Assembly (NCBI GenBank): GCA_022827095.1
Contig: JAJDTP010000021.1
Span: 194,771 to 258,770, forward strand
Direction of reading: 5' to 3'
DNA: 64,000 bases
Source of the DNA: Dehalococcoidia bacterium
GTDB taxonomy: Bacteria; Chloroflexota; Dehalococcoidia; Lucifugimonadales; UBA3495
The notes beneath the pieces are model-generated. The model had not been told where the DNA came from, did not search any database, and worked only from the letters and a program-made list of their open reading frames with translations. Shown piece after piece: positions 38,907-47,765 of this stretch. A program made the position numbers and the translations under genes. The number at the start of each line of letters is the position of its first letter. Within the stretch, counting starts at the first letter, position 1.

Positions 38907-39332
38907 TCAGGACGGGCGGTTGCGACGCTCTTCCTCGCGTTCCTCGGCCTTGTGGCGCAACGGACGACCCTTGTCCGGTGTGGGGTCTTTCACCTCGCCA
39001 TATATGGCGCGGCCTTCGTGGTCCTCGGGTAGATATTCGGTGATGGGCAGACCTGCCTCATTCACGAAAAGCAGTCAATGACAGTACTTGTAGATCTGCA
39101 TATCGTCGCAGGCGCAAATCCACGTGCGGTGCTTGACCTCCTCCTGCTTGCACGGGTAGAAGCGACAGGGACAGAGTGGGCGGCCGATTTCGTCGACATT
39201 CTGGGCCAAACCCAAAATTACGGCTTCGGCGACGCCTTCTTCCGGATGTGTGAATGTGCCGGATTTTTCGCAATATCGCTCCACAAAAAGGCGCATCCGG
39301 GCTATTGATTTTTCGCTGGGCTGGTCAGCCAC
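38907..39332 (-). CDS. selenocysteine-containing ferredoxin-thioredoxin reductase-type catalytic subunit
   Basis: 141 aa if UGA (39075-39077) is read as selenocysteine at residue 86. The product matches the FTR catalytic chain: C54-P-C56 (RPLCPCRFYPC), C73-A-C75 (TWICACDDMQ) and C84-H-U86 (YKYCH, then UGA). FTR-C normally has CPC, CPC and CHC. Its last Cys and the second Cys of the first pair form the redox disulfide beside a 4Fe-4S cluster bound by the other four, so U replaces a redox-active Cys. After the UGA the frame continues without a break as LLFVNEAGLPITEYLPEDHE, family-like sequence, to the stop at 38907. The start is GTG 39332 behind GAGGAGG. No variable FTR subunit is visible nearby. 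It would reduce thioredoxin-like partners. Confidence 0.88.
39043..39061 (-). promoter_or_regulatory. SECIS element of the FTR-like selenoprotein
   Basis: On the minus strand, 21 bases after the UGA, there is a hairpin AUG-(A bulge)-GGCA-GGUC-UGCC-CAU. The apical loop GGUC (39050-39053), the four-pair upper stem, a single bulged base and a three-pair lower stem have the same build as the SelB-binding core of E. coli fdhF, which carries GCAGGUCUGC. Spacing falls within the range known for bacterial SECIS elements (about 16-37 bases to the loop). Confidence 0.82.
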
Positions 39333-39453
39333 TTGGGTCCTCCTCAATCTCACTAATTGGTCAGTCTGCCGGCCATCTTCAGATTGGCGGCAAGGTGGTA
39401 GGTCAATGTTATTCGCATCTACGAATTTCTGCAATGCAGGACACGAGCGTTCG

Positions 39454-39616
39454 CAGGGCTATCGCATATGAACGGTTTAGTATCGTCATACCGGCGAAAG
39501 CCGGTATCCAGTGACCGAAGTCGGCTGATGCCATGGGAATATCAAGCCATTCACGGGCTCTGGACTCCGGCTTTCGCCGGAGTGACGGGTGAGTGATTTC
39601 ATATGCGATAGCCCTG
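39454..39616. repeat. 163-bp MITE-like element with 19-bp terminal inverted repeats
   Basis: Ends are exact complements: CAGGGCTATCGCATATGAA (39454-39472) and TTCATATGCGATAGCCCTG (39598-39616). Inside is a second pair, GTCATACCGGCGAAAGCCGG near 39487 and its relative near 39570-39588 (CCGGCTTTCGCCGGAGTGAC). No protein is encoded. The region 39333-39700 otherwise holds nothing that I can support. Confidence 0.7.
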
Positions 39617-39700
39617 AGGGCGTTCGGAGGGCTGACAGTTGCGGGTTCGTCCGGGTGGGACGCAGTCAGTGGGCCACGCTCGATACGCCTGTTTGAGGAA

Positions 39701-41197: not shown

Positions 41198-43060
41198 TCA
41201 GGAGGAGGTCGGGCGCAAGCTACAGGAATCCGTGCATCCGGGCGGCACTCTCATAGATTCCGGGTCCGGGAGCGCACATCCCATCTCAGTCAGGGTGTCG
41301 ACGATCCTGCAGGCGGGCAGACCCATAACGTTAGAATAGCAGCCTGATAGCAACGAGGCCGGCCTGAAGTCCGGGTCCTGGATCGCGTAGGCGCCGGCTT
41401 TGTCCATAGGGGTGCCGCTGGCGATGGACTCTTCCAACTCGGCGTCGGTGAAGTCGCGCATCTGGACATCGGCGGCGTTGGCGTCGGTGATGCAGCGACC
41501 GGTTACAGCGTCGTAAACGGTGAAGCCGGTGATCACCTGGTGAGTGGTAGCGCGCAGGCGGCGGAGCATGGAGCGCGCTTCCTCGGCATCCGCGGGCTTG
41601 GCGATGGACTCGCCGTCCAGGACCACGGTGCTGTCGGCGGCAACGTAATAGCCGGATGATGGCGACTCCGCCCCGGCAACGGCCAGGGCTTTCTCCCGCG
41701 ACAGGCGGCGGACCATCTGCTCAGGGCTCTCGTCGGGCTCCTGCTCTTCCGGTATGGCCGAGGGAGCCACACGGAAATCGATACCCAAACCGGAGAGCAA
41801 TTCCCGGCGGCGAGGAGAGGCGGACGCCAGCACGATCTCGGCGGTCACCGGCTTGGTGACCAGCGTCGCCACGCATTCCACGTGGTGCGTTTGGGGGAAC
41901 ATGTCGACCGGCTGAACCGACTGGATACGGTAGCCCCGGCTCAGTGTACGCAAATCGCGCGCCAACGACTCAGGGTTGCAGGACACATAGGCAATGCGGC
42001 TCGGCCGCTGGGCCAACAACGCCTCAAGCACTGGAGGCTGACACCCGGACCGGGACGGGTCCAGGATCACGGCGTCGGGTGTCACCTTCAGGGTTGGAAG
42101 TATCTCCTCCACCTTGCCGGTGACCAACCGGACGTTGGAGTGTCCGGCGGCGTTCTCCGTGGCGTCGGCGATGGCTGCGGTGGATTCTTCCACCGCGATG
42201 ATCTCTCGGGCGAAAGGCGCCAGCAGCACGGCGAAAGTCCCGACGCCGGCGTAGGCATCGACCACGATCTCGTTGCCGGTGAGTGCCAACGCGTCCTTGA
42301 CCAACTCCCCCAGCCGGGCCGCCTGCCACACGTTGACCTGGAAGAAGGACGGAGACGCGACCCGGAATTCCTGGTCCGCTACGGATTCGCGGTAGGTCTT
42401 CTGGCCAGTGGGGATTGCGATCTCAGGGTTCTTGAGGGTTGGCTGGACGAGGTAGTCGCCGGTTTGCGGAGAGGAACGGATAGCCAACTGCGAGGTCTCG
42501 GCGGCGCGTCCCTGCAACTGGGACAGAATGTCGTTGACGCCATCGTGCATCAGCATGCAACGGTCGATGCGGACGAACCGCCGGCGTTCCCGGTGGGTGA
42601 ATCCCAAAGCGCCACTCTCACGCCAAACGTTGAAACGTGCATGGTTGCGGTAGTGATATTGGCGGGGTGACGCCAGGGTGGGTTGGACGTTGGGCGCGTG
42701 GAAGTTGCCAATTCGCTCCAGCGCGTCCCGCACGATCTCGGTTTTGACGGTCAGTTGCTCCTCGTATTCAACGTGTTGCCATTGGCAACCGGTGCATTGG
42801 CCGAAGTATTCGCACGGCGGTTCCACCCGCGCCGGGGACGGGGTAATCACGCGAGTGACCTGGGCGGCGACGTATTTCCGGCGTACGGCCACGACTTCGG
42901 CTTCGACCCGCTCCCCGGGTATGCCGCCGAAGACGAAAACGTCTGATCCGCCGTGCTTGGCCATCGCCTCGCCGAGGCGGCCCCACGCATGGAGGTCCAA
43001 TTGGACGATATCGCCGCGTTCAACTGTGGCGGCGGCGTTAGAGACTGAGATCTGGGTCAT
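41198..43060 (-). CDS. fusion of RlmD/RumA-type rRNA methyltransferase and Maf nucleotide pyrophosphatase
   Basis: 620 aa. Residues 1-405 are a 23S rRNA uracil-5 methyltransferase-type enzyme: an N-terminal TRAM-like domain, the Fe-S cysteine cluster CEYFGQCTGCQW (about 83-94), the SAM motif VVDAYAGVGTFAVLLAPFA and the catalytic end DPSRSGCQPP, YVSCNPESLARDL and MFPQTHHVE. Residue 407 onward is a complete Maf domain: LASASPRRRELL, YVAADSTVVLDGESIAKP and GAYAIQDP. Maf proteins hydrolyse noncanonical nucleoside triphosphates (dTTP/UTP or m7GTP type). No stop or ribosome site lies between them, so they are one chain. Confidence 0.85.
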   Translation of the reverse strand: MTQISVSNAAATVERGDIVQLDLHAWGRLGEAMAKHGGSDVFVFGGIPGERVEAEVVAVRRKYVAAQVTRVITPSPARVEPPCEYFGQCTGCQWQHVEYEEQLTVKTEIVRDALERIGNFHAPNVQPTLASPRQYHYRNHARFNVWRESGALGFTHRERRRFVRIDRCMLMHDGVNDILSQLQGRAAETSQLAIRSSPQTGDYLVQPTLKNPEIAIPTGQKTYRESVADQEFRVASPSFFQVNVWQAARLGELVKDALALTGNEIVVDAYAGVGTFAVLLAPFAREIIAVEESTAAIADATENAAGHSNVRLVTGKVEEILPTLKVTPDAVILDPSRSGCQPPVLEALLAQRPSRIAYVSCNPESLARDLRTLSRGYRIQSVQPVDMFPQTHHVECVATLVTKPVTAEIVLASASPRRRELLSGLGIDFRVAPSAIPEEQEPDESPEQMVRRLSREKALAVAGAESPSSGYYVAADSTVVLDGESIAKPADAEEARSMLRRLRATTHQVITGFTVYDAVTGRCITDANAADVQMRDFTDAELEESIASGTPMDKAGAYAIQDPDFRPASLLSGCYSNVMGLPACRIVDTLTEMGCALPDPESMRVPPGCTDSCSLRPTSS

Positions 43061-43134: not shown

Positions 43135-43239
43135 TGTCATTCTTGCGAAAGCAGGAATCCAGCGATGGTATGGTGACGGAAACATAACAGTGTTTAATGA
43201 TTTCGGTCATTGGATTCCGGCTTTCGCCGGAATGACGAT
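43135..43239. repeat. GTCATTC...GAATGAC inverted-repeat element
   Basis: TGTCATTCTTGCGAAAGCAG with GAATCCA, ending near 43162, and the reverse-complementary arm TGGATTCCGGCTTTCGCC with GGAATGACG (about 43212-43239) flank about 50 bases. A related pair is inside 39454-39616. A decayed arm is near 4967. No gene is seen in 43061-43410. Confidence 0.7.
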
Positions 43240-43298
43240 TCGGGGTAGAAAGCGGCTGACCGGGACTATATAAAGGCTGGTCAGCCAGTGGGGTTCGG

Positions 43299-43325
43299 TT
43301 GACCGCCCCACAGGCGGGGTATAAT
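43299..43325 (+). promoter_or_regulatory. candidate promoter of trxA-selC
   Basis: TTGACC (43299-43304) and a perfect TATAAT (43320-43325) are 15 bases apart, shorter than the usual 17. The spacer contains CCCC and GGGG facing each other. The trxA ATG is about 80 bases downstream. The perfect -10 gives some weight. Confidence 0.45.
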
Positions 43326-43410
43326 ATTGGCAACATCCCGGCCGGCTAACGTGGCGGCGGTTGCCGTCTGCCGCTATGGCCGCAGAGCGATCCAATCTGG
43401 AGGAATTAGA

Positions 43411-43740
43411 ATGCCCGAACCTATCGAAGTGAACGGAGAGAACTGGCAAAGCAACGTGATGGACTCGGATCTGCCGGTGATGGTGGACTTCTGGGCGGAA
43501 TGGTGCGGGCCCTGCAAGATGATCGCTCCGGCCGTGCATGACCTGGCGCTGGAGTACGAAGGGAAGCTGAACGTGGCCAAGCTGGACGTGGACAACGCGC
43601 CGGAAATCGCGGCGCAATACGGCATCCGCAGCATCCCGGCGTTGATTTTCTTCAAGAACGGACAGCCGATCGACCAGGTCGTGGGCGCGCAGCCCAAGCC
43701 GGCCCTGAAGCGGAAGATCGACGCGGTGCTGGAGAGCTAA
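43411..43740 (+). CDS. trxA: thioredoxin
   Basis: 109 aa, full thioredoxin fold with the active site WCGPC (about residues 32-36) in MVDFWAEWCGPCKMIAP, the cis-Pro segment GIRSIPALIFFKNG and the final helix. It reduces protein disulfides in the cytoplasm. GGAGG precedes the ATG at 43411. The tRNA-Sec gene begins 12 bases after its stop, so the two may share a transcript. The FTR-like selenoprotein 4.1 kb away is a plausible electron donor for this thioredoxin. Confidence 0.95.
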   Translation: MPEPIEVNGENWQSNVMDSDLPVMVDFWAEWCGPCKMIAPAVHDLALEYEGKLNVAKLDVDNAPEIAAQYGIRSIPALIFFKNGQPIDQVVGAQPKPALKRKIDAVLES

Positions 43741-43752
43741 GCGCCGATTCGC

Positions 43753-43849
43753 GGGAGTGGATGGGGCCCGGTGGCTCTTGCGGACTTCAAATCCGTTATG
43801 CCTCGTGACGAGCGGGGTAGGTGGGTTCGACTCCCTCGCACTCCCGCCA
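43753..43849 (+). tRNA. selC: tRNA-Sec (anticodon UCA)
   Basis: 97 bases, as expected for the longest bacterial tRNA. Acceptor GGGAGTG pairs with CACTCCC, followed by encoded GCCA (discriminator G). The D arm has the diagnostic six-pair stem GGGGCC/GGCTCT with a four-base loop. The anticodon stem is GCGGA/TCCGT with loop CTTCAAA (TCA at 43787-43789), and there is a long variable arm. The T loop TTCGACT is preceded by GTGGG. Eighth acceptor pair G-G and one T-T in the T stem look imperfect, so the exact arm boundaries are uncertain, but length, D arm and anticodon identify it. It inserts selenocysteine at UGA. Confidence 0.9.
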
Positions 43850-43899
43850 GTGCGGATTTGCGGTCCTGATTTCCACCAGGCTGCTACGAACTGAAAGCA

Positions 43900-43935
43900 A
43901 ACGGCTTCGAGGTGAGTACCCCGGAGCCGTTTTTT
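43900..43935 (+). terminator. Rho-independent terminator after selC
   Basis: AACGGCT (43900-43906) pairs with AGCCGTT (43925-43931), with an inner GGT/ACC, and is followed by TTTT. It ends the trxA-selC transcript 51 bases after the tRNA. Confidence 0.75.
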
Positions 43936-44624: not shown

Positions 44625-44763
44625 AATTGCGCTCCGGTCCAAGAAGATGATGGCCCCACTATGATACCCAGCGACCGGGCTCAGACCAAGACCGCGCTCA
44701 TGCTCGCCTTGTCCGATGGGTGGCACTCTGCTAACCTTGCGGCGCCGCGAACGAGGATTTGAT

Positions 44764-45516
44764 TTGAGCCAGCCGCAGCCCATTCGGGCGTCCCTTTTCG
44801 TCACATGCATCGTTGACCAGCTTTATCCTGAAGTTGGGGTCAGCGTGGTGCGGGTGCTGAGGAAGGCCGGCGTCGATGTCGACTTCCCGGAAGGCCAGAC
44901 CTGCTGCGGTCAGCCGCTGTACAACTCCGGTTTCACGGTAGAGGCGCGGAGACTGGCGGAGCGCACGCTAGATATCCTGGACGACCGGGGGTACGTGGTC
45001 GTGCCGTCGGGCTCCTGCGGCGCGATGATGCGAGTGTTTTACTTGGACCTGTTCGCGGACGACCCGGAAATGCTGGCTCGTGCGAATGATCTGAGCCATC
45101 GTATCTACGAATTCACGGAGTTTCTATCGGACGTGGTCGGCTATGAGCCCCGGACGGTGGGGGCAGCCAATGGCGGTACGACAGTGGCGTATCACCCGTC
45201 GTGCCACCTGTTGCGCGAGATGGAGGTCAAAGAGGCTCCGCAGGGGTTGCTGGACGCCGCGCCGGGCGTCGAGCGCGTTGAATTGCCGGATGCGGAGCAG
45301 TGCTGCGGGTTCGGCGGGACGTTTGCCGTGAAATATCCGCACATCTCGGAGGAGATGCTGGCCGACAAGGTGGCCGCGGCCACGGCCAGCGGGGCGGACA
45401 CGCTTACGGCATGTGACATGGGCTGCCTGATGCACATCGGCGGGGCCGTGAGCCGACAGGGATTGCCGCTCCGCGTGCGGCATATCGCGCAGGTCCTGGA
45501 CAGCGGGGCTGGTTAG
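44764..45516 (+). CDS. lutA: lactate utilisation protein A (CCG-domain)
   Basis: 250 aa with two CCG domains: CIVDQLYPEVGVSVVRVL and TCCGQPLYNSG, then HPSCHLLREMEV and QCCGFGGTFAVKYP. These bind 4Fe-4S clusters or related centres. LutABC together oxidise L-lactate to pyruvate, passing electrons to a quinone or other carrier. The start is uncertain: TTG 44764 with GAGG in front fits the conserved N-terminus better than ATG 44716. Two bases separate it from lutB. Confidence 0.88.
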   Translation: MSQPQPIRASLFVTCIVDQLYPEVGVSVVRVLRKAGVDVDFPEGQTCCGQPLYNSGFTVEARRLAERTLDILDDRGYVVVPSGSCGAMMRVFYLDLFADDPEMLARANDLSHRIYEFTEFLSDVVGYEPRTVGAANGGTTVAYHPSCHLLREMEVKEAPQGLLDAAPGVERVELPDAEQCCGFGGTFAVKYPHISEEMLADKVAAATASGADTLTACDMGCLMHIGGAVSRQGLPLRVRHIAQVLDSGAG

Positions 45517-45518
45517 TC

Positions 45519-46979
45519 ATGGCGGAAGTGGTTACGCGCCAGTTTGTGCCCGCCTCTCAGGCGGCGGTGAAGGATGCCCAACTGCGCCAAGCGTTGCGCC
45601 GGGCGGGCACGGGTTTTGACGGGACGCGGCGGGAGGCTATCGAAGAGGTCACCCCCGGGGTGTGGGAGCAGTGGCGAGTGCAGGCGCGTCGGATCAAGGA
45701 ACACACCATCGGGCACCTGGACTACTACCTGGAGATGCTGGAGCGGAACGTGACCGCGGCCGGCGGGCGAGTGCATTTTGCCGTTGACGCCGAGCAGGCC
45801 AATGCCATCGTGTCCGAGATCGCGCGCGCGAACGGCGTGTGGACGGTCACGAAGAGCAAGTCGATGGTGTCCGAGGAACTTGGCCTCAACCACGTGCTGG
45901 AGGCGCAGGGAATCGACGTGTTCGAAACCGACCTGGGTGAGTACATCATCCAGTTGGCCGACGAGACGCCTTCCCACCTGGTGGCGCCGGCGCTGCACAA
46001 GACCCGGGGGCAGGTGGCCCAACTGTTTGCGGATCAACTGGGCGTGCCGTATTCGGATGACATCGAGGAGATGGCGCGGATAGCCCGGGTGGTGCTGCGC
46101 CAGAAATTCCTGGACGCCGACATGGGCATCAGCGGGGCAAATTTCCTGGTGGCCGAAACCGGCTCGCTGGTGATCATCACCAACGAGGGCAACGGCCGGT
46201 TGTGCACCTCCGCGCCGCGGGTCCACGTGGGCCTGGCCGGCATGGAGAAAGTGATCCCGTCGTTGCAGGACCTGGCGGTGTTCCTGAGGCTGCTGCCCCG
46301 TTCGGCGACGGGACAGCGCATCACGTCTTACATGAGCATGGTCACCGGGCCGCGTCGTTCCGAGGACGAGGATGGGCCGGAGGAATTTCACCTGGTGATC
46401 GTGGACAACGGACGCAGCCGCCTGTTGGCCGATCCCGCGCTGCGGGAGTCGCTTTACTGCATCCGATGTGGAGCGTGCTTGAACGTCTGCCCGGTTTACC
46501 AGCGGGTGGGCGGCCACGCCTATGGGTGGGTGTATCCCGGGCCGATCGGGTCGATAGTGACGCCGGGGCTGGTGGGAGTGGGACAGGCCAAGGACCTGCC
46601 AAACGCTTCGACGCTATGCGGGGCGTGCCGGGACGCCTGCCCGGTTCAAATCAACATTCCCAGAATGCTGCTGCACCTGCGACACAACATCGCGGAGGGG
46701 CCGGAACAATACGAGGGAACAGGCTCCGATACGGAGAGCCTCCTGGCGCGAGGATTCGCCTCCGTTATGTCCAGTCCCCGGCTGTTGAACATTGGACGCA
46801 GGATTGGCCGACGATTGCTTGCGCCCATAGCGAAAGGCGGCGTGCTGGGCCCCACGCGCATCCCGTTGGTGTCCCGTTGGACGCGGGCGCGGGATCTGCC
46901 CATTCCCGCACCTCGATCATTCTCCGAAGTCTGGCGGGATGAGCTGGCGGGCCAGCAGTCGAACCGCTCCGGGGACTAA
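45519..46979 (+). CDS. lutB: lactate utilisation protein B
   Basis: 486 aa: an N-terminal LUD domain (about 60-300, with VTKSKSMVSEELGLN and GANFLVAETGSLVIITNEGNGR), then two 4Fe-4S motifs (CIRCGACLNVCPVYQ, about 312-326, and CGACRDACPVQIN, about 367-379) and a LutB-type C-terminus. It is the iron-sulfur core of the lactate-oxidising complex. It is tightly spaced between lutA and lutC. Confidence 0.93.
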   Translation: MAEVVTRQFVPASQAAVKDAQLRQALRRAGTGFDGTRREAIEEVTPGVWEQWRVQARRIKEHTIGHLDYYLEMLERNVTAAGGRVHFAVDAEQANAIVSEIARANGVWTVTKSKSMVSEELGLNHVLEAQGIDVFETDLGEYIIQLADETPSHLVAPALHKTRGQVAQLFADQLGVPYSDDIEEMARIARVVLRQKFLDADMGISGANFLVAETGSLVIITNEGNGRLCTSAPRVHVGLAGMEKVIPSLQDLAVFLRLLPRSATGQRITSYMSMVTGPRRSEDEDGPEEFHLVIVDNGRSRLLADPALRESLYCIRCGACLNVCPVYQRVGGHAYGWVYPGPIGSIVTPGLVGVGQAKDLPNASTLCGACRDACPVQINIPRMLLHLRHNIAEGPEQYEGTGSDTESLLARGFASVMSSPRLLNIGRRIGRRLLAPIAKGGVLGPTRIPLVSRWTRARDLPIPAPRSFSEVWRDELAGQQSNRSGD

Positions 46980-46982
46980 TGC

Positions 46983-47765
46983 ATGGGTATCCCGTTCAAT
47001 CGTGTCAGCGGGTCGCAGAGCGGCTCATTGGGTATCCCATCACAACAATTCCGGGAAACGGTGCGCGCGGCACTGGGCAGGGAAAGCGGTGCGCCCGCCG
47101 AGCCATATGAGGTGCTGACACAGGAGTTGCCTGAGATCGAGGCTCAGGCACAGGCGGCGCGAGATCGTATCGCCCGGGAAAGACCCGAGTTACTGGATCA
47201 ATTGGCGGCGACCGCAGGGCTCCGGGGATGGAACGTGCAGCGATGCGAAGGGGCGGAGGAAGGGTTGGATTATGTCGCATGGCTCGTGCGGAGTCTGGGG
47301 GCGACGTCGGTGGCAAGATCGGAGCAGCCGGTGTTCGACACCGCGCCGGTGGACGCTGCCGTCGCGGGCGCCGGCGGACTTTGCTGGCCCGCCGTGTACG
47401 ATGGCCCCGCCAGCCGGACCGAAGTGCGGCAACGGCTGGCGGAATCGGGCATGGGGATCACCGGAGCCGACTACGCCATCGCCGAAACTGGCTCGGTAGT
47501 CGTGCTGCCCAGGCGGGGCCTGAGCCGCCTGGTGTCGGTGGTTCCGCCGGTGCACGTGGCCATCGTCAGGCCTTCGGACGTGGTTGGCACGCTGGACGAT
47601 CTGTTCGCGCTGCGGCGGCTGGAGTACGCAAGGGACGGCGGTGAGATGGGCAGCTACCTGAACTTCATCACCGGCCCCAGCCGGACCGCGGACATTGAAC
47701 AGACGATAGTGGTGGGCGTGCACGGGCCGCGTGAGGTCCACATGGTGCTGCTGAACAAGGAGTAG
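46983..47765 (+). CDS. lutC: lactate utilisation protein C
   Basis: 260 aa LUD-domain protein: GITGADYAIAETGSVVVL and PPVHVAIVRPSDVVGTLDDL, ending HGPREVHMVLLNKE. Third subunit of the LutABC lactate dehydrogenase system. It starts three bases after the lutB stop, with a weak ribosome site, which suggests coupled translation. The operon continues after four bases with an MNT-like gene. Confidence 0.9.
   Translation: MGIPFNRVSGSQSGSLGIPSQQFRETVRAALGRESGAPAEPYEVLTQELPEIEAQAQAARDRIARERPELLDQLAATAGLRGWNVQRCEGAEEGLDYVAWLVRSLGATSVARSEQPVFDTAPVDAAVAGAGGLCWPAVYDGPASRTEVRQRLAESGMGITGADYAIAETGSVVVLPRRGLSRLVSVVPPVHVAIVRPSDVVGTLDDLFALRRLEYARDGGEMGSYLNFITGPSRTADIEQTIVVGVHGPREVHMVLLNKE

Follow-up and report, generated by a model that had tools for sequence, protein, structure and literature searches.

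Within the 64-kb stretch of DNA analysed here (the window), a gene for a thioredoxin (Trx), trxA, is followed on the same strand by a tRNA gene, selC, and a gene for the catalytic subunit of ferredoxin-thioredoxin reductase (FTR) lies about 4.3 kb from selC on the opposite strand. The features discussed below are as follows:

43299-43328, plus strand: promoter-like site ahead of trxA (identified by consensus matching only)
43411-43740, plus strand: trxA, thioredoxin of 109 aa with a WCGPC motif (PF00085, 114.7 bits)
43741-43752, plus strand: trxA-selC spacer of 12 nt (from the sequence and from the spacers in relatives)
43753-43849, plus strand: selC, tRNA-Sec of 97 nt with anticodon UCA and an encoded GCCA end (ARAGORN, Rfam RF01852 and comparison with relatives)
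43899-43935, plus strand: intrinsic terminator behind selC, an 11-pair hairpin followed by U6 (hairpin -19.8 kcal/mol)
38907-39434, minus strand: FTR catalytic subunit, with a UGA at 39075-39077 (CxU, second Cys of CHC; PF02943, 70.5 bits)

The thioredoxin gene ends at 43740 and selC starts at 43753, 12 bases behind it as an earlier note on this DNA had stated, with no terminator between the two genes and one after selC. A genome-wide search found trxA to be the only canonical thioredoxin (113.9 bits, against 40.9 for the next best match). Elsewhere in the window, a 620-aa ORF on the minus strand (41198-43060) fuses an RNA uracil-5 methyltransferase domain (PF05958) with a Maf domain (PF02545), in a joined order that recurs in many members of the window's family; downstream of selC (44716-47765, plus strand) lie genes for a cysteine-rich CCG protein and two LUD-domain proteins of the lactate utilisation type, which are found near selC in several family members; and repeat copies with arms of TCATTCCGGCGAAAGCCGGAATCC seem to occupy intergenic stretches upstream of trxA (43140-43240) and near tatA (39480-39680).

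The tRNA gene is a genuine selenocysteine tRNA gene. The single tRNA call made by ARAGORN across the window is a tRNA-SeC at 43753-43849 (plus strand, anticodon TCA), and the Rfam tRNA-Sec model (RF01852) scores 66.4 bits at 43753-43845 (E 2.4e-11), above its gathering cut-off of 47; no other RNA family reaches its threshold in the window. The two methods agree with the earlier reading of this 97-base tRNA, with its UCA anticodon, six-pair D stem and long variable arm, as selC; the Rfam alignment and the sequence add the discriminator G73 and the encoded CCA. The next best RF01852 match in the whole genome scores 50 bits, and at seven weaker loci that we read, ARAGORN identifies the tRNA genes as Ser, Leu, Ala, Arg or Gly, so that the genome has one strong selC (contig C11).

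The remaining selenocysteine machinery is encoded elsewhere in the genome (3.79 Mb in 35 contigs, 97.7% complete), where the search proposed in the earlier note recovered selA (540.9 bits, contig C5), selB (355.5 bits, contig C26) and selD (376 bits, contig C20). The selD gene has one in-frame TGA near its N-terminus, at the site that Sec occupies in SelD selenoproteins. Seven of the 13 AhpC/TSA-family matches in the genome also contain one in-frame UGA each, always at the active-site Cys (WUPHC, WUPYC, CUVNC, WUPVC, WUPEC, GUT and TUPP):

C17:17310, C5:506552, C5:581456, C8:73739, C5:767811, C5:768787 and C15:217442 of genome G000: the UGA-bearing AhpC/TSA genes (L275-L281)

These seven make up a Sec-rich set of Trx-fold proteins for one genome. 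Together with SelD and FTR, this gives at least nine genes (a lower bound) in which an in-frame UGA takes the place of a redox-active Cys codon; no in-frame stop interrupts the formate dehydrogenase alpha matches in the genome. Judged by its gene content, with selA, selB, selC, selD and the UGA genes all present, this genome decodes Sec, as the earlier note had proposed from selC itself.

Conservation of the pair was followed in the selC loci of 80 genomes of the order, picked by the tRNA alone, in 77 of which the upstream side could be judged. In 71 of the 77 genomes, and in 30 of 34 families, selC is immediately preceded by a trxA gene of the same orientation; outside the window's family, the pair is present in 34 of 38 genomes, which represent 29 of 33 families. 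The 71 pairs include genome G059, with a 350-nt spacer, and genome G022, in which trxA appears frameshifted (L102), possibly through an assembly error. Six genomes of the order have a selC without an adjoining trxA. As a control, we compared the outer neighbours in cross-family genome pairs: the gene upstream of trxA was common to 86 of 375 (23%), and the gene downstream of selC to 3 of 375 (1%). The adjacency of trxA and selC is thus conserved far beyond background synteny across this order of SAR202-type Chloroflexota, which answers the question of relatives that the earlier note had raised. An exact pattern search of the order returned 32 of 250 genomes, a lower bound given that a tight spacer and an exact motif were required and that some of the genomes have no selC.

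In the wider phylum, selC is present in 226 of 301 genomes, but outside the order trxA lies beside it in only 4 of about 70 loci read, two in the same class (L148 and L170) and two outside it (L150 and L213); Sec decoding therefore does not need the pairing. In 84,980 species, we also looked for stretches in which a WCGPC motif precedes, at the distance expected for the pair, the anticodon arm of a tRNA-Sec. The scan yielded 38 stretches, 36 of which are real trxA-selC pairs, all in records with Chloroflexota titles except 'Bacterium HR23', whose contig agrees in number and coordinates with G422, a genome of the order. The other two, with Bacteroidetes and Alphaproteobacteria titles, were rejected as pairs, being without a tRNA-Sec. 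Confirmed trxA-selC pairs are thus found essentially only in Chloroflexota across the species scanned.

The tRNA itself bears a second mark of the lineage. All 13 layers (8+5) of its acceptor/T stack are present: the acceptor consists of GGGAGTG paired with CACTCCC and a G-G as the eighth layer, and the T stem has a T-T (U-U) at its second layer, which is layer 10 of the stack (50:64). The mismatches at layers 8 and 10 are lineage-wide. The earlier note had seen both and called them unusual; they are there, but they recur in the selC genes of relatives. Within the order, 56 of 80 selC genes have the G-G at layer 8 and the others mostly G:C or A:U; outside it, the G-G is found in 15 of 69. The U50-U64 mismatch is present in 72 of 80 selC genes of the order versus 0 of 69 outside, and in 1 of 33 other (non-Sec) tRNAs in the fetched loci. 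At the preceding layer, the order has G49:C65 (76 of 80), and the selC genes outside it have a G49-U65 wobble (60 of 69), mostly together with U50:A64. A few families of the order have paired T-stem layers, so that the U50-U64 mismatch is not absolutely required. The G-G and U-U pairs are a lineage character of tRNA-Sec rather than oddities of one sequence; sequencing errors or a decaying gene were rejected as explanations, the mismatches being identical in dozens of genomes and families.

A reading with a 7-bp acceptor, and hence a 12-bp AT stem, was likewise rejected. The weak or missing eighth acceptor pair does recall the tRNA-Sec species with a 12-bp AT stem (Secmarker, PMC5330540), but here eight residues (GCACTCCC) rather than seven separate the T stem from G73, and relatives retain the layer-8 position and restore G:C or A:U there, keeping the 8+5 length. 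In E. coli, pairs 7-66, 49-65 and 50-64 of tRNA-Sec (C7-G66, G49-U65 and C50-G64) reject EF-Tu (PMC9976931, PMC11231383), and it is in these three layers, 8-10 of the acceptor/T stack, that the order has its irregular pairs. Unlike E. coli and most other Chloroflexota, which have the G49-U65 wobble, the order combines G49:C65 with the U50-U64 mismatch. From this pattern we infer that the irregular layer may have shifted from 49:65 to 50:64 in the order, with its function in EF-Tu rejection retained. The conserved U-U in the segment that discriminates between EF-Tu and SelB is a natural variant, with which the rules that exclude Sec-tRNA from EF-Tu become testable.

We next turn to the arrangement of transcription signals. 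The 12-nt spacer is too short for a terminator or a promoter and contains neither, and a promoter scan near selC (consensus matching only) returned no promoter-like site; in most of the 71 pairs of the order, the spacer measures 5-37 nt. The earlier note held that trxA and selC share a terminator, and indeed one lies after selC (at 43899-43935) and none in the gap, from which we infer a shared transcript. A simple terminator scan omitted the selC terminator, probably owing to the interior loop of its hairpin, and a first scan across genomes was too strict and gave no contrast; the counts given here come from a revised scan. A terminator within 130 nt behind selC is present in 27 of 33 members of the window's family, where shuffles give 3.7 and a coding control gives 5; outside the family the count is 6 of 31 genomes, hardly above background. 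The short spacers and the terminator behind selC fit a two-gene transcript in this genome. However, a strong terminator stands between trxA and selC in 7 of the 9 window-family members with a spacer of at least 45 nt, all seven belonging to genus g4 (GC-rich, GGCGCCGCC...GGCGGCGCCTTTTATTT; L098, L103, L108, L110, L111, L113 and L114), and in 5 of 18 long-spacer genomes of other families; co-transcription is therefore not a universal rule. In genus g4, selC probably needs a promoter of its own, and its adjacency to trxA is still kept.

Known arrangements of selC offer partial parallels. In selABC and selCAB operons (PMC5330540, PMC8124441), selC likewise forms part of a transcription unit that also contains protein-coding genes for selenium metabolism, but here the putative partner is a thioredoxin, and selA (C5), selB (C26) and selD (C20) all lie on contigs other than that of selC (C11). 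The selC genes nested in or overlapping selB (Mukai 2021, PMC8124441; PMC13188914) are, like the present pair, lineage-specific and tie tRNA-Sec expression to a protein gene; here, in contrast, the genes do not overlap and the partner is a different one. Mukai 2021 (PMC8124441) mentions neither thioredoxin nor Chloroflexi, and we found no published description of a trxA-selC pair in the open-access literature, which is weak evidence of novelty.

We consider it fairly probable that trxA and selC form a two-gene unit, with selC in second place, that is typical of one Chloroflexota order and is kept because Trx and tRNA-Sec serve the same process. In this genome, transcription would start at a single promoter ahead of trxA and yield an mRNA with tRNA-Sec in its 3' part, ending at the terminator behind selC, and RNase P and 3' nucleases would release the tRNA from it. 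Trx would support selenite reduction for SelD and serve many Trx-fold selenoenzymes, and tRNA-Sec would be needed to make those same enzymes; joint expression of the two would then be favoured and the pairing retained. TrxA does reduce selenite, and E. coli that lacks it shows less activity of a selenoprotein, formate dehydrogenase (PMC8538045). The conservation of the pair across the order, the status of the linked trxA as the sole canonical Trx and the many Trx-fold UGA genes of the genome all speak in support of the link. In view of the terminators that separate the two genes in g4 and in a few others, a looser form of co-regulation may also account for the adjacency.

An account in which the function of thioredoxin is irrelevant seems to us rather doubtful, and we give it about half the weight of the functional link: in the ancestor of the order, selC would have come to lie downstream of a strong housekeeping promoter, and it would have stayed there since relocation would cost expression. 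The tight spacers, with no room for a promoter, agree with such promoter sharing, as does the sharp phylogenetic limit of the pair, which is consistent with one event, and no FTR or other partner is required. Against this, the adjacency persists where a terminator separates the two genes, and the pairs outside the class (L150 and L213) occur in families whose other sampled members are without the pair. Frozen synteny, with no selection on the pair, is very unlikely: the whole stretch lpdA-tatC-rlmD/maf-trxA-selC is indeed conserved in the window's family, but across families the outer neighbours have changed, as the control counts show, while the pair stays.

The earlier note had gone further and suggested a local selenium/thioredoxin module in which FTR reduces Trx and selC supplies the Sec for FTR. 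Sec-containing FTR is a known selenoprotein family (GOS 2008, PMC2398784; PMC13188914), and the FTR of the window, with its UGA at the second Cys of CHC, resembles its members (PMC2398784; NF041072 CxU); what is added here is that the gene does not travel with selC. The FTR is a genuine UGA gene, relatives of other genera having TGC or TGT at the aligned position, and it is physically close to selC both here and in four congeners; a hairpin behind the UGA, sought as a SECIS element, was not clearly more stable than shuffles. FTR was found in 48 of 99 genomes searched, and twelve with FTR and selC on one contig were compared: the two are 4.1-6.6 kb apart in five, all of the window's genus, and 0.5-2.8 Mb apart in the other seven. 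Other members of that genus have lpdA and tatC at the usual distance from selC and no FTR between, and two of its genomes that consist of one contig, G003 and G007, retain the trxA-selC pair but are devoid of FTR; elsewhere, FTR and selC are 0.5-2.8 Mb apart or on different contigs, or FTR is missing. NADPH thioredoxin reductase (TrxB) is present in the genome above the curated cut-off, so that Trx has another candidate reductant besides FTR. Distant or missing in nearly all genomes that retain trxA-selC, and one of at least nine UGA genes, FTR is rejected as part of the trxA-selC unit and judged a recent neighbour; of the proposed module the conserved trxA-selC pair stands, the local supply of Sec to FTR does not, and the whole, already contradicted as a conserved module, is highly improbable. 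Among the FTRs of other genera, those of G019, G032, G038, G041, G043, G015, G052, G071, G083-G085, G089, G093, G095 and G058 have two in-frame TGA codons, possibly with Sec in place of both redox-active Cys, or with one Sec and a stop codon close to where the profile match ends.

To return to the trxA-selC unit, a fuller version of the functional link can be put forward tentatively: the unit would be under selection for coupling the supply of tRNA-Sec to the level of thioredoxin, and the tRNA-Sec of this lineage would also have exchanged the G49-U65 wobble for the U50-U64 mismatch as its signal for EF-Tu rejection. If the two are so coupled, the capacity to make Sec proteins would rise and fall with the reductant that feeds both selenium assimilation and the Trx-fold selenoenzymes. 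The lineage is mostly uncultivated and marine, and the genome studied encodes a rich set of Trx-fold selenoproteins. What connects selenium metabolism with the thioredoxin system is so far mostly biochemical evidence; the order-wide conserved pairing of the sole canonical thioredoxin with tRNA-Sec would support such a connection at the genome level.
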